From Pseudomonadota bacterium (GTDB lineage: Bacteria; Pseudomonadota; Gammaproteobacteria; Xanthomonadales; Xanthomonadaceae): a DNA stretch of 17,141 nt. Made by a program: the position numbers and the translations under genes. Below are positions 7,036-13,645 of this stretch, piece by piece. The notes under the pieces were generated by a model. That model searched no databases. It was not told the origin of the DNA and saw only the letters and a program-made list of their open reading frames with translations. The stretch spans positions 1 through 17,141 of the forward strand of contig JAHWKC010000007.1 of NCBI GenBank assembly GCA_019348095.1. Reading direction: 5' to 3'. Numbering within the stretch: position 1 is the stretch's first letter; every line of letters starts with the position of its first letter.

Positions 7036-8153
7036 TCAGCCCGCGTAGACCGCGCCCAGCACGCGCGGGCCGCGGGCCCCGCTCACGCTGGGGAGATTGC
7101 CGGGCAGGCCGGCCAGGGTCTGCCGGGCCAGCCACGCGAATCCCATGGCCTCGACGAAATCCGGATCGAGCCCGTAGTCGGCCGTCGATTGCAGCGTCGT
7201 CTCCGGCAGGTGCGCGGCAAGCCGCTCCAGCAGCCGCGGATTGCGTACGCCGCCACCGCAGACGATCACGCGGCGGGTGCGCGGCTGATGCGCGCGCAGC
7301 GCGTCCGCGGCGGTGACCGCGCTCAGTTCGAGCAGCGTGGCCTGCACGTCCTCGGCGGCTTCATCGCCGCGCAACGCGGCCTGCACCCAGTCGAGGTGGA
7401 ACTGTTCGCGGCCGGTGCTCTTGGGCGGAGGCAGGGCGAACCACGAGTCCTCGAGCAGGCGCGCCAGCAGGCTGGAGTCGACCTGTCCGCGCGCCGCAAA
7501 CGCGCCGTCGATATCGTAGGGCTGGCCGAGGTGGCGTTCGCACCAGGCATCCAGCAGTGCATTGGCCGGGCCGGTGTCGAAGCCGCGCACGGTGCCGGCG
7601 GTCGATGAGGCGGTACGCGGCAGCAGGGTGAAGTTGGCAATGCCACCGAGGTTGAGCACCGCCCGGTCCTCCTCGGCCGCATGCAGCATCGCGGCATGGA
7701 ACGCCGGCATCAGCGGCGCGCCATGGCCGCCGGCGGCGACATCGCGGCGCCGGAAATCCGCGACCGTGGTGATGCCGCAGCGCTCGGCGATGAGGTTGCC
7801 GTCGCCGAGTTGCCAGGTGAACGGGTGGCGGCCGTCGAAACCGGCGCCATCGGGGCGGTGGCGCACGGTCTGGCCGTGCGAGCCGATCGCCCGGACCTGC
7901 TCGCGCGTCACCCCGGCCTGGTCGAGCAGCTGCCTGGCGGCGTCGGCGAAAGCCTCGCCGATCTGCACGTCCAGCGTACCCAGTTCATCCAGCGAATCGG
8001 CCGCACCGCCCTGGCCAAGCGCGACCAGGCGCGGGCGCAACTGCGCCGCCCATGGATAGGTGCGGCCGAGCACGAGTTCGCAGGCGACGTGCCCGGCGGA
8101 TGCGGAGGAGTTGAAACGCACCAGCGCGGCATCGATGCCGTCGGCGCTGGTGC
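7036..8153 (-). CDS. anmK: Anhydro-N-acetylmuramic acid kinase, start codon region lost
   Basis: AnmK phosphorylates and hydrates anhydroMurNAc to MurNAc-6-P in peptidoglycan recycling. About 371 residues remain. Markers from the N-terminus are [13 protein letters not shown] (ATP loop, normally preceded by a short strand and G), [29 protein letters not shown] with the catalytic Asp, [23 protein letters not shown], and [15 protein letters not shown]. The C-terminus is complete. The native first ~10-12 codons are missing: beyond 8153 the frame continues only into sequence antisense to imuB, with an in-frame ATG at 8265 that would add about 37 unrelated residues. The Gly expected before TSADGID is Ser. 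The gene is therefore probably 5'-truncated at the junction. Confidence 0.93.
8144..8153. other. anmK/imuB junction on ~10 bp of shared sequence
   Basis: GCGCTGGTGC can be read both as reverse anmK (the codons for ..TSA.. of TSADGID) and as forward imuB (ALVLEVGAS). Left of it only anmK is recognisable, and right of it only imuB. Each gene loses its 5' end at this point, so the intervening DNA is absent from this sequence. Confidence 0.7.
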
Positions 8154-9265
8154 TGGAGGTCGGCGCGAGTTTCAAGCTGTTCGGGCCATGGCCGCGGCTG
8201 GAAGCGCAACTGCGCGCCGAACTTGCCGAGCTCGGCTTCCGCCATCGCATCGTGCTGGCGCCCAACCCCTACGCGGCGCGCGTGCTGGCCAATGCGCACG
8301 ATGGGCTGGCGGTCACCGACCCGGCGCCGATGCAGCACGCGCTCGGCCATCTGCCGGTCGAACGCAGCGGGCTGGCGCCGGAGGTCGCGACAAGCCTGCG
8401 TCGCATGGGGCTGCGCAAGTTGCGCCAGGTGTTCGCGTTGCCGCGCGCGGCGCTGACCAGGCGTGTCGGGGTGGAGTCGCTCAGGCATCTGGACCGGCTG
8501 CGTGGCGAGCTGTCGACGCCGCTGCAGTATTACCAGCCGCCCGATTCGTTCCAGTCGCGGATCGAGCTCAACTTCGACGTCGAATCCAGCCAGGCGCTGC
8601 TGTTCCCGCTGCGGCGCCTGACGGGCGACATGGCCGCGTTCCTGGCCGGCCGCGATGGCGGCGTGCAGCGCTTCACGCTGGTGCTGGAGCACGAGCGTTG
8701 CGCCGATACCGAAGTCACGATCGGCCTGCTCGCGCCCGAACGCGATCCTTCGATGCTGTTCGAACTCGCCCGCGGCCGGCTCGAACAGGCGCGCGTGCCG
8801 GCGCCGGTGCGTGGGGTGCAACTGATTGCACGCGAGTTGCCGGCGTTCGTGCCGGCCGGGCGTGACCTGTTCGACGCGCGGCCGCAACAGGCGGTGCCCT
8901 GGGAGCAATTGCGCGAGCGCCTGCGCGCGCGGCTCGGCGACGATGCGGTGCACGGTCTGGCGGTGCGCGCCGACCATCGGCCCGAGCGTGCCTGGCAGAC
9001 CGCCAGCCAATCGCGTCATCCGGTCCAGCCGCCGCCCCTGCCCCGCCCCGGCTGGCTGCTGCCAAAGCCTGTGCCGCTGCGCGACCACCGCCTGCGCGTG
9101 CTTGCCGGGCCGGAGCGCATCGAGACCGGCTGGTGGGACCTTGAGGTGCGCCGGGATTATTACCTGGTCGAAACCAGCCTCGGCCAGCGCGCGTGGGCGT
9201 TCCGGCCGGCCGGCGATCGTGCCGATGCGAGTGGCGGCTTCATGCTGCATGGGTGGTTCGCGTGA
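8144..9265 (+). pseudogene. imuB: ImuB, Y-family polymerase homologue, N-terminus missing
   Basis: ImuB is a catalytically inactive Y-family polymerase relative that links DnaE2 to the sliding clamp in SOS mutagenesis. About 373 residues remain, starting at [20 protein letters not shown], which in full-length proteins lies roughly 100 residues in. [20 protein letters not shown], the HhH-like MGLRKLRQVFALPRAAL, and the little-finger region SRIELNFDVES through LTLVLEHE-like strands are present. The C-terminal part includes GRDLFDARPQ (possible clamp-binding DLF) and [14 protein letters not shown], and the end is normal (TGA 9263-9265). Upstream codons of the same frame (from 8060) are antisense anmK and not ImuB-like. 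imuA is not in the window. Confidence 0.9.
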
Positions 9266-9275
9266 ACGCTGCTTC

Positions 9276-9359
9276 CGTAGGGTGGGCACGTCTTTGGTGC
9301 CCACCACCGCCGGTGCCGGTACCGGTGCAGGTGGGCACACAGAACGTGCCCACCCTACG
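9276..9359. repeat. Nested inverted repeat (REPIN-like) GTAGGGTGGGCAC family
   Basis: The outer arms CGTAGGGTGGGCACGT (9276-9291) and ACGTGCCCACCCTACG (9344-9359) are perfect 16-bp reverse complements. Each half also folds alone: GGTGGGCAC (9281-9289) with GTGCCCACC (9297-9305), and GGTGGGCAC (9330-9338) with GTGCCCACC (9346-9354). This is two REP-like hairpins in opposite orientation, i.e. REPIN architecture. It begins ten bases after the imuB stop. Confidence 0.85.
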
Positions 9360-9370
9360 TGCGGTCGAGC

Positions 9371-9533
9371 CCTCCCCTTCAAGGGGGCGAGGATGGGCGT
9401 TTGCGAGCCACTGGCTCGCGCCCATCGCAGCGCCTTCGCGCAAAGCGCGGAGGCCGGACGGGTTGGGTGGGGATGGGTTGCAACGGCACCCTCCAACCCA
9501 TCCCCATCCCGGCCTTCCCCTTGGAGGGGAAGG
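9371..9533. repeat. Composite palindromic repeat before dnaE2
   Basis: The stretch starts with CCTCCCCTTCAAGGGG (9371-9386), shared with 2341-2356. It then has a 12-bp stem GGGGATGGGTTG (9469-9480) / CAACCCATCCCC (9494-9505) with a 13-base loop. It ends with CCTTCCCC (9513-9520) / GGGGAAGG (9526-9533). With the preceding repeat it fills the whole 275-base imuB-dnaE2 gap, in which I see no gene. Confidence 0.7.
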
Positions 9534-9540: not shown

Positions 9541-12500
9541 CTGCCCGCCTACGCCGAGCTGCACTGCCTGTCGGCCTTCAGTTTCCAGCGCGGGGCGTCG
9601 ATCGCGCCGGAGTTGTTCGAGCGCGCGAAACAACTCGGCTACAGCGCGCTCGCGATCACCGATGAAGGGTCGCTGGCCGGCATCGTGCGTGCGCTGGAAG
9701 CGTCGCGAAAGTTCGACCTGAAGCTGATCGTTGGCAGCGAGGTGCAGATCTTCGACGGGCCGAAGCTGGTGCTGCTGGCCGAAACCCAGACCGGTTACAC
9801 CACGCTGTGCCAGCTGCTGACGCGCGCGCGCCGGCGTGCGCCCAAAGGCCAGTACCGCCTGCTGCGCGAGGACTTCACCGGCACCGACGGGCTGCTCGCG
9901 CTGTGGGTTCCCGGCTTGATCCCCGACGACGCCGAAGCGAGGTGGACCAAGGCGAATTTTCCGCAACGCACGTGGCTGGCGGTCGAACTGCACCGCGGGC
10001 CGGACGACGAAGCACGCATCGCGCAATTGCGCGGGATCGGTACGCGCCTGCAACTGCCGCTGGTCGCCGCCGGCGACGTGCACATGCACGTGCGCGGGCG
10101 CCGCGCCCTGCAGGACACGATGACCGCGATCCGCCACAAGACCACGGTCGCGCTGGCCGGCCATCGCCTGTTCCCCAACGGCGAGCGCCACCTGCGCGCA
10201 CGCCGCGCGCTCGCCGCGATCCATCCGGCCGACCTGCTCGCCGAAACCGTGCGCATCGCCGAGCGCTGCACGTTCAAACTCGATGAACTGCGTTACGAAT
10301 ACCCGCACGAGCTGGTGCCCGAGGGGCACGACGCGGCCAGCTGGCTGCGGCATCTGGTCGAACAAGGCGCACGCTGGCGCTGGCCGGAGGGCATCGGACA
10401 GAAGGCCCATGAGCTGATCGAGCACGAACTGGACCTGGTCGCCTACAAGAGGTACGAGTCCTACTTCCTGACCGTGCATGACATCGTGCGTTTTGCACGC
10501 TCCCAGAACATCCTCTGCCAAGGCCGCGGCTCGGCCGCCAATTCGGTCATCTGCTACGTGCTGGGCGTCACCGAGATCGACCCGGTGCGCATGAACATGC
10601 TGTTTGAGCGGTTCATCTCGAAGGAACGCGACGAGCCGCCGGACATCGACATCGACTTCGAGCACGAGCGCCGCGAGGAGGTGCTGCAGTACGTGTTCAA
10701 CCGTTACGGTCGCGAGCGCGCGGCACTGACCGCGGTGGCCACCCAGTACCGCGGCCGCGGCGCGGTGCGCGATGTCGCGCGTGCGCTCGGGCTGCCGCAG
10801 GACATGATCGGCGAGCTCGCCAGCGCCATGGACCAATGGAGCGGCGAGGCGCTGGCTCAACCTGAAACGTTTGCCGAGCACCTGCGCGAACGCGGCTTCG
10901 ACCCCGATTCGCCACTGCTGCGCCAGGTGATCGTGCTGACCGCGCAGCTGGTCGGCATGCCGCGCCACCTGTCGCAACACCCGGGCGGGTTCGTGATTTC
11001 CGAGCATCCGCTGCACACCTTGGTGCCGGTGGAAAACGCAGCGATGGACGACCGTACCGTGATCCAGTGGGACAAGGACGACCTCGACGTGCTCGGCCTG
11101 CTCAAGGTCGACTGCCTCGCGCTGGGCATGCTGACCGCGGTACGCAAGACGCTGGACCTGCTGCGCGATTCAGGCCGTCGCGACATGTCGCTCGGCGATA
11201 TCCCCGCCGAGGATCGGCAGACCTACGGGATGATCAGCCGCGCCGACACCGTCGGCGTATTCCAGATCGAGTCGCGGGCGCAGATGGCGATGCTGCCGCG
11301 GATGCGGCCGGAAACCTTCTACGACCTGGTGATCCAGGTCGCGATCGTGCGGCCCGGACCGATCCAGGGCGACATGGTGCATCCCTACCTGCAGCGCCGG
11401 AACGGGCTGGAACCGGTCCACTATCCCTCGGACAAACTCAAATCGGTGTTGCAACGCACCCTCGGCATCCCGCTGTTCCAGGAACAGGTGATGCAGATCG
11501 CGATGGTCGCGGCCGACTTCACCGCGGGCGAGGCCGACCAGTTGCGGCGCTCGATGGCGGCCTGGAAACGCCACGGTGGGCTGGAGCCGCATCGCCAGAG
11601 GCTGATGGACGGCATGCTACGCAACGGCTACAGCCGCGAGTACGCCGAGCGCATCTTCGAGCAGATCAAGGGCTTCGGCAGCTACGGATTTCCCGAGTCG
11701 CACGCGGCCAGCTTCGCGCTGATCGCCTATGCCAGTTCGTGGCTCAAGTGTCACGAACCGGCCGCATTCGCGTGCGCGCTGATCAACTCGTGGCCGATGG
11801 GGTTCTATTCGCCCGACCAGCTGCTGCAGGATGCGCGCCGGCATGGCATTCGTACCTTGCCGCTGGATGTGCGTTACAGCGGGTGGGATTGCGGTCTTGA
11901 AGAAGATCAACATCCGGTAGGAGCGGCTTCAGCCGCGATCGGAAATCGACGCATGCGAACCGACTCTCCATCGCGGCTGAAGCCGCTCCTACAGGAAACG
12001 GCACGGGAGAATTTCCTGCGTCCACAACCCGCCATCCGCCTTGGCCTGCGTTTGATCCGTGGCCTGCCGGAGGACGCCGCTCGGCGCATCGAGGACGCGC
12101 GCGCGCAGCGGCCGTTCGGCGATGTCGCCGACCTGTGCGCACGCGCCGGTCTGGACCGCCGCGCGCAATCGGTGCTGGCCGATGCCGGCGCCTTGCGCGG
12201 CCTGGCCGGGCACCGGCATCGCGCGCGCTGGGCGATCACCGGCGTCGAGCCGCAACTGCCGCTGTTCGCGGAGGCGCCGGCGGCGAAGGAGACCGAGAAC
12301 ATCGTGCTGCCGCTGCCGAGTGCGGACGAGGATATGCGCGCGGACTACGCGATGACCGGCACCACGCTCGGCCGCCATCCGCTGGCATTGCTGCGCCCTC
12401 GCCTGCGCGCGCGCCGCTACCAGCGCTCGCGCGAGCTGCACGACCTGCCGCACGGCCGCAGCGTCGCGTTCGCCGGGCTCGTCACCCTGCGCCAGCGCCC

Positions 12501-12738
12501 GCAGACCGCCAGCGGCGTGACGTTCCTGACGCTCGAGGACGAGGACGGGCTGGTCAATGTCGTCGTGTGGGCGCACCTGGCGGAACGCCAGCGTCGCGAA
12601 CTGCTCGAATCGCGCCTGCTGGCGGTCGAGGGCCGGCTGGAGTGCCAGCACGGAGTAATGCATCTGATTGCGAAGCGCCTGGACAACCTCACGCCGCTGC
12701 TGGGAACGCTGGAGACACGATCGCGGGATTTTCATTGA
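9541..12738 (+). CDS. dnaE2: Error-prone DNA polymerase DnaE2 (ImuC), with in-frame repeat insertion
   Basis: DnaE2 is the C-family polymerase of the ImuA/ImuB/DnaE2 mutasome that bypasses lesions during SOS. The product is about 1065 residues. The PHP domain begins at [18 protein letters not shown]. The polymerase core has [15 protein letters not shown] and the catalytic aspartates in PDIDIDF (D368/D370) and LLKVDCLAL (D524). C-terminal HhH-like segments and an OB-fold ([20 protein letters not shown]) follow. Residues ~793-818 are encoded by a REPIN between [13 protein letters not shown] and [12 protein letters not shown], a linker region. No ATG, GTG or TTG stands at the conserved start. 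The Shine-Dalgarno site at 9530-9535 points to CTG 9541 (LPAYAEL), where relatives may have Met-Pro. In-frame upstream starts (e.g. TTG 9475-9480 area) would begin inside repeat sequence. Confidence 0.93.
11917..11992. repeat. REPIN copy A, inside dnaE2
   Basis: The arms GTAGGAGCGGCTTCAGCCGC-GA (11917-11938) and its exact reverse complement (11971-11992) flank a 32-base spacer. The arms are identical in all three copies; the spacers differ. This copy is read through in frame and gives VGAASAAIG and SRLKPLL in the protein. Confidence 0.95.
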
Positions 12739-12757: not shown

Positions 12758-12837
12758 GTAGGAGCGGCTTCAGCCGCGATGAGTTGTCAGGACCGACGCC
12801 GCATGATGAAAGGCATCGCGGCTGAAGCCGCTCCTAC
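12758..12837. repeat. REPIN copy B, between dnaE2 and UdgX-like gene
   Basis: The 22-bp arms lie at 12758-12779 and 12816-12837, with a 36-base spacer. The element starts 19 bases after the dnaE2 stop. Its right arm contains the stop codon (TAG, 12836-12834 reverse) of the converging uracil-DNA glycosylase gene. It may serve as a transcript-end stem for both genes. Confidence 0.95.
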
Positions 12838-13571: not shown

Positions 13572-13645
13572 GTAGGAGCGGCTTCAGCCGCGATCGGCGA
13601 TTGGGTCGGCCGAGAACTCGGGATCGCGGCTGAAGCCGCTCCTAC
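13572..13645. repeat. REPIN copy C
   Basis: The same 22-bp arms lie at 13572-13593 and 13624-13645, with a 30-base spacer. The copy sits in the 233-base gap between the UdgX-like gene start and the protease gene end. Nothing else but a terminator is seen in that gap. Confidence 0.95.

Follow-up and report, generated by a model that had tools for sequence, protein, structure and literature searches.

The window, as we refer to the whole stretch of 17,141 nucleotides of DNA that was analyzed, carries the gene dnaE2 at positions 9541..12738 of the forward strand. The encoded error-prone DNA polymerase appears in the database as a protein of 1065 amino acids (P0002) starting at 9541, and the mechanically delimited open reading frame (ORF) begins at 9193 and has 1181 codons. 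The gene was identified by its score of 1479 bits with NCBIfam PRK05672.1 (cut-off 939), and Pfam detected the domains PHP, Pol3, finger, helix-hairpin-helix (HhH) and OB. DnaE2 is an accessory error-prone polymerase, and the initial annotation overstated the constraint on it when it spoke of an essential-fold enzyme.

The ORF found at 8060-9265 of the forward strand, which we take to be imuB, has only weak DNA polymerase IV matches in NCBIfam and matches six out of six loci of relatives only from residue 23-25. AnmK, encoded on the minus strand at 7036-8265, matches its models only from residue 29-37, and their first six or more positions are absent. The truncated imuB-like ORF and AnmK overlap head to head over about 26 bases (8132-8157), in what looks like a chimeric junction or a rearranged region. 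The stretch from the imuB-like ORF to the start of dnaE2 contains an imperfect palindrome of 84 bp (9276-9359; 42-nt arms, 81% complementary), followed by a CTCCCCTTCAAGGGG-type repeat at 9369-9400. The mechanical dnaE2 ORF runs through this palindrome.

Structure and reading frame of the REPIN in dnaE2

REPINs, as outlined in PMC3116915, are inverted doublets of REPs that form a long hairpin, occur in many copies and are thought to be moved by RAYTs, and PMC3733652 defines the GTAG superfamily of REPs by the tetranucleotide GTAG at one of the two ends of the palindrome. An inverted pair of GTAG REPs, with the GTAG ends outside, occupies positions 11917..11992 (forward strand) of dnaE2. The left arm, 23 bp long, spans 11917..11939 on the forward strand; the right arm (11970..11992, minus strand) is its exact reverse complement; and a center of 30 bp (11940..11969, forward strand) separates them. 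The initial annotation had described a complete REPIN with perfect 22-bp arms that is translated in frame and adds about 26 residues, and our results agree with it. Complementarity is exact over 22 bp, or 23 bp when the next pair, T11939/A11970, is counted. The element corresponds to codons 909-933 plus one base of the 1181-codon ORF and to residues 793-817 of P0002, so that it contributes 25 residues and one base. There is no stop in the dnaE2 frame across the REPIN, which lies wholly within the conserved gene, and the two halves of dnaE2 around it are complete and in frame.

The element has therefore the structure of a REPIN, two inverted REPs with a short spacer, and GTAG at the outer end of both arms as expected for the GTAG superfamily. 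The difference lies in its location, since the REPINs of PMC3116915 were defined in extragenic space and the dnaE2 copy is inside an open reading frame. As an extragenic location is a typical and not a structural trait of REPINs, we still place the element in the family and regard it as a REPIN-family copy located within a gene rather than a typical REPIN. A stop-free palindromic element fully contained in a conserved gene is also the mode in which the Rickettsia palindromic elements (RPE) occur. According to the main text of PMC3733652, these are palindromic repeats found in frame in protein genes, one of them in the DnaE of R. conorii; unlike the dnaE2 REPIN, they are CGTC-type or longer and belong to another host, and the likeness to R. 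conorii DnaE drawn here concerns the host gene. An Rfam scan at gathering thresholds gave no match.

The insert had been placed in a linker ahead of the HhH region; instead, it interrupts the tandem HhH region itself. The Pfam HHH_6 match (PF14579; 11845..12222, forward strand) covers ORF residues 885-1010 and profile positions 1-89, that is, 126 residues for a profile of 90 positions, with a score of 60 bits. In P0012, a relative that has no insert, HHH_6 covers 91 residues with 76 bits. The (HhH)2 region is described in PMC3919608 as part of the conserved core. When aligned to the DNA polymerase III alpha subunit of Taq (3e0d), the insertion site falls near the short stretch VVGEEILFG, which suggests that it may correspond to a surface turn directly before the first HhH motif.

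The predicted RNA hairpin of the REPIN has a free energy of -59.8 kcal/mol (z -9.25), and none of 200 shuffled sequences was predicted to be equally stable, in line with the strong mid-gene mRNA hairpin that had been proposed. Such a hairpin could possibly affect translation or mRNA stability.

The REPIN family in the genome and a second site in metG

The exact REPIN pattern with 22-bp arms was found at 49 places in the genome of the window, and the reversed control pattern at none, so that the repeat is much too frequent to be due to chance. Single REPs with at most one mismatch numbered 128 in forward and 141 in reverse orientation. The assembly is fragmented (2.71 Mb in 480 contigs, 72% complete). 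These counts show that the element is present in many copies and, together with the arms and the open frame, confirm the REPIN inside dnaE2. Downstream of dnaE2, the gene for uracil-DNA glycosylase is flanked by two further complete REPINs of this family (12758-12837 and 13572-13645 of the window), and its TAG stop (12834-12836, minus strand) is provided by the GTAG end of the first of them. A REPIN likewise follows dnaE2 in the related genome G108 (L017, 4766-4841).

The genome also contains a Y1-type transposase gene (Y1_Tnp, PF01797, 52 bits) with a cluster of GTAG repeats adjoining it, the stem of which differs from that of the dnaE2 element. This gene may code for a RAYT.

The 300-base flanks of the 49 REPINs were then scored in a codon-usage screen trained on seven genes of the window. 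The same best frame was found on both sides of 11 REPINs, and a clear coding signal on both sides combined with an open frame in only two, the copy in dnaE2 and another in a linker of metG. The nine further same-frame REPINs were set aside, as either a flank or the element itself contained a stop, or the scores were about zero or negative; the REPIN of L271 was set aside with scores of -1 and -4, though its frame is open throughout. The figure of two in-frame copies out of 49 is an estimate, because of these nine cases and because some REPINs are near contig ends.

The second intragenic REPIN (L002, 1501-1574), recognized by the codon-usage screen and by reading the ORF, is located between the anticodon-binding domain and the tRNA-binding domain at the C terminus of MetG. 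A MetG search covered 25 genomes, and the linker was readable in 23, including the genome of the window, and unreadable in G125 and G035. At the DNA level, inverted GTAG-type pairs, intact or decayed, were present in the metG linker of four of the 22 readable relatives: G136, G173 and G163 have pairs tagged GTAG/GTGG, the stems of which differ or the arms of which are mismatched in part, and G011 has a decayed pair. The assembly of the window also includes a second, partial metG (L323; G000:C48:712-1761) that is 87% identical, suggesting a second strain or contamination.

The behavior of metG bears on the question of whether dnaE2 attracts these repeats. The HhH loop of DnaE2 could be a true hot target, with preferential insertion and fast turnover, so that the length of the polymerase would be ever changing and mutagenesis might be affected. 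We consider this quite unlikely. Two unrelated sites, in dnaE2 and metG, behave in the same way, which favors tolerance rather than dnaE2 being especially attractive to repeats.

The same loop in related species

The REPIN is contained in a variable loop between the motifs WDC.LE and QPAIRLGLR (11902..12024, forward strand), which is 41 residues long in the window. This loop was measured in 145 of 146 loci from 141 genomes, window included; the measured loci are among the best listed matches, and 291 genomes had a match. The median length was 8 residues and the 5-95% range 4-31.6, which supports the view that the REPIN lengthens DnaE2. Loops of 20 residues or more were found at 19 of the 145 loci. 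Family matches that end at residues 903-911 were considered as breaks caused by inserts, and this was rejected because the loops there are mostly short.

A repeat origin was firm for seven of the 19 long loops, window included. The evidence was weaker in three others: the patterns in the loops of G131 and G035 have just three and two other near copies, respectively, and the loop of G151 holds only half an element, with an arm outside the one-mismatch search. For the remaining nine of these loops of at least 20 residues a repeat origin was not demonstrated, which indicates that ordinary loop growth also occurs. The RNA z-scores of loops of at least 14 residues ranged from -11.6 (G163) to +0.9, and therefore hairpin strength alone is no marker of repeat origin.

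The closest case is P0003, from Lysobacter sp. D1-1-M9, which is 93% identical over the C-terminal 502 residues used in the search. It has the same insert, including an identical peptide encoded by the center, and the same right flank. P0004 (82% identical) has a decayed version of the insert, and the right flank is common to P0002, P0003 and P0004; P0003 and P0004 are known at the protein level only. The identical insert in P0003 indicates that the insertion predates the split from Lysobacter sp. D1-1-M9. It also bears on the reality of the insert. A misjoin at a repeat could have placed a REPIN in dnaE2, the assembly being divided into 480 contigs and the same window having the chimeric-looking junction near 8132-8157. 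However, D1-1-M9, whose longest listed contig is 250 kb, encodes the same insert, center and right flank, and the two halves of dnaE2 are complete and in frame. An assembly artefact is thus very unlikely, to the point that we rejected misassembly as the source of the REPIN.

Peptides resembling that of the GTAG REPIN, in the same phase and with other centers, were found in P0005, P0006, P0008, P0009, P0010 and P0013, and P0014 has half of such a peptide. The GTAG cases in the loop are read in a common phase (VGAAS.. / SRLKPLL). At the DNA level, the REPIN arms of the window recur in the loop of G108. Palindromes of the CGTC type occupy the loops of G212, G054 and G073, and the loop of G163 has a GTAG palindrome built on a different stem, the stem in G011 being different again. 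The repeats in the loops of these six genomes have further exact or one-mismatch copies in their own genomes. The peptide encoded by the G212 loop equals that of L. concretionis Ko07 (L046), and CGTC-type as well as PPFEK-type segments are present in the same DnaE2 loop of close relatives. The initial annotation had regarded the REPIN as a recent insertion, and our results do not support a one-off or clearly recent event: besides the identical insert and center in P0003 and the decayed one in P0004, six further proteins have REPIN-like peptides. It had also held that a homologous segment of similar length in both close and more distant DnaE2 proteins would speak against a recent insertion. Such a segment is found in near relatives and is missing in distant ones: in all 53 pseudomonad loci measured, out of 80 fetched, the stretch from W to RLGLR has 15-19 residues, versus 51 on the same count in the window.

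Several other loops deserve mention. Within one genus (L028, L029 and L030), the strong loop palindrome of G163, the repeat of which has 81 + 77 genomic matches, has diverged look-alikes in the dnaE2 loops of G287 and G233, with one and two genomic matches, respectively; their likeness to the G163 palindrome is suggestive only. The loop peptides of P0007 and P0072 presumably resemble other known repeats. In L091, a record titled Bacillus subtilis SK7B5, the DnaE2 loop is similar to the one in a Stenotrophomonas record (L068), and L091 is probably mislabelled or contaminated.

History and meaning of the insertion

The history of the loop was studied on a tree of 45 DnaE2 proteins built by a quick method after cutting the loop out. 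In four of them, P0011, P0045, P0051 and P0094, the script did not locate the loop, which was left in, and the states of database proteins rest on peptides and not on DNA. With four states (GTAG, CGTC, PPFEK and none) at least 11 changes were needed, or 10 without the doubtful rows P0004, P0014, P0022 and P0024. The nearest neighbors P0010 (GTAG-like) and L. concretionis (CGTC-type) differ in their repeat, with a support of 82. Taken alone, the GTAG state needs seven changes, or one gain and eight losses.

The last figure raises the alternative of one ancestral REPIN insertion in the clade, followed by losses, decay and homogenization of the arms by gene conversion against genomic copies. The common phase of the GTAG cases and the right flank shared by P0002, P0003 and P0004 agree with such a history, and, provided that the arms were homogenized afterwards, one gain with eight losses accounts for the distribution of GTAG on the tree. 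The comparison of the window with G108 argues against it. Outside the loop, the two dnaE2 DNA sequences are 0.795 identical, and the arms of their REPINs are identical at 44 of 44 bases, which has a chance of 4e-5 if the arms evolved like the rest. The centers, compared among the 49 REPINs of the window's genome and 17 of the 118 of G108, are no closer than those of other REPIN pairs drawn from the two genomes (an equally high score is reached by 40% of 832 such pairs) and give no support to orthology of the two dnaE2 REPINs. Identical arms around centers without special likeness point to separate insertions or to later replacement, not to one quietly inherited element. The context was checked for 17 G108 REPINs (those at the top of the list and two in L017), and of these the dnaE2 copy alone combined an open frame with positive coding scores in both flanks. 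Furthermore, the CGTC-type and PPFEK-type segments in the same loop of close relatives require repeated events anyway. We consider a single ancestral insertion unlikely, and the best reading is that the dnaE2 loop has been used and turned over repeatedly, in related species, by REPINs of the GTAG family and by other palindromic repeats.

Our preferred explanation, to which we assign a probability of about 0.8, is that a GTAG REPIN, probably mobilized by a RAYT, landed in a tolerant loop of dnaE2 and was kept because it was in frame, and that the same sites are reused. A mobile REPIN of the GTAG superfamily would have entered a loop that tolerates changes in length, where the tandem HhH domain starts, presumably through the action of a RAYT transposase. 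It would have been retained because the frame stays open and the fold is kept, the insert being free of stops and adding only to a loop that is probably exposed at the surface. The REPIN-bearing dnaE2 would then have drifted to fixation with a near-neutral effect. The insert would be an inheritance from before the split from Lysobacter sp. D1-1-M9, and the longer DnaE2 is probably expressed. The dnaE2 loop and the metG linker would thus be safe landing places and not unique accidents.

A function of the insert, either in tuning DnaE2 (for instance, the mutation rate) or as an mRNA hairpin for pausing or cleavage, is an alternative that we find distinctly improbable. The predicted hairpin is very stable, and the authors of the 2013 study speculated in its main text about mutator effects of REPs recurring in repair genes (PMC3733652). 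However, close species lack the insert or have others of different length and peptide, no peptide is conserved across the clade, and the metG linker behaves alike.

Intragenic REPs as such, and their presence in DnaE2, were described in a study of 2013. The main text of that study (Di Nocera, De Gregorio and Rocco, PMC3733652) reports many of them from genes for replication and repair, mentions DnaE2 and tRNA synthetases by name, and proposes loops and linkers as sites that tolerate REPs. The insert described here resembles those intragenic GTAG/CGTC REPs, which are palindromes tagged by the tetranucleotide, often dimers, lying in frame in genes. According to the same text, only recB of X. campestris and X. 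oryzae has a REP site in common, and the other genes of that category differ in site; the word Lysobacter does not occur in it. Unlike the sections of that study compared here, our results describe the repeated occupancy of the same site of DnaE2 or MetG by different repeats. No description of the repeated occupancy of the DnaE2 site was found in the open-licence literature, the 2013 supplement being outside this search. What our results add is the recurrent use and turnover of these sites, one in dnaE2 and one in metG.

The insert in dnaE2 provides an example, dated in relative terms, of a mobile hairpin that turned into protein-coding sequence. It is also a caution that peptides encoded by repeats can be genuine parts of annotated proteins and not annotation errors. 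The natural series of empty, fresh, decayed and replaced sites at dnaE2 and metG could be used to measure the rate at which such repeats enter genes and to find the loops that tolerate them.
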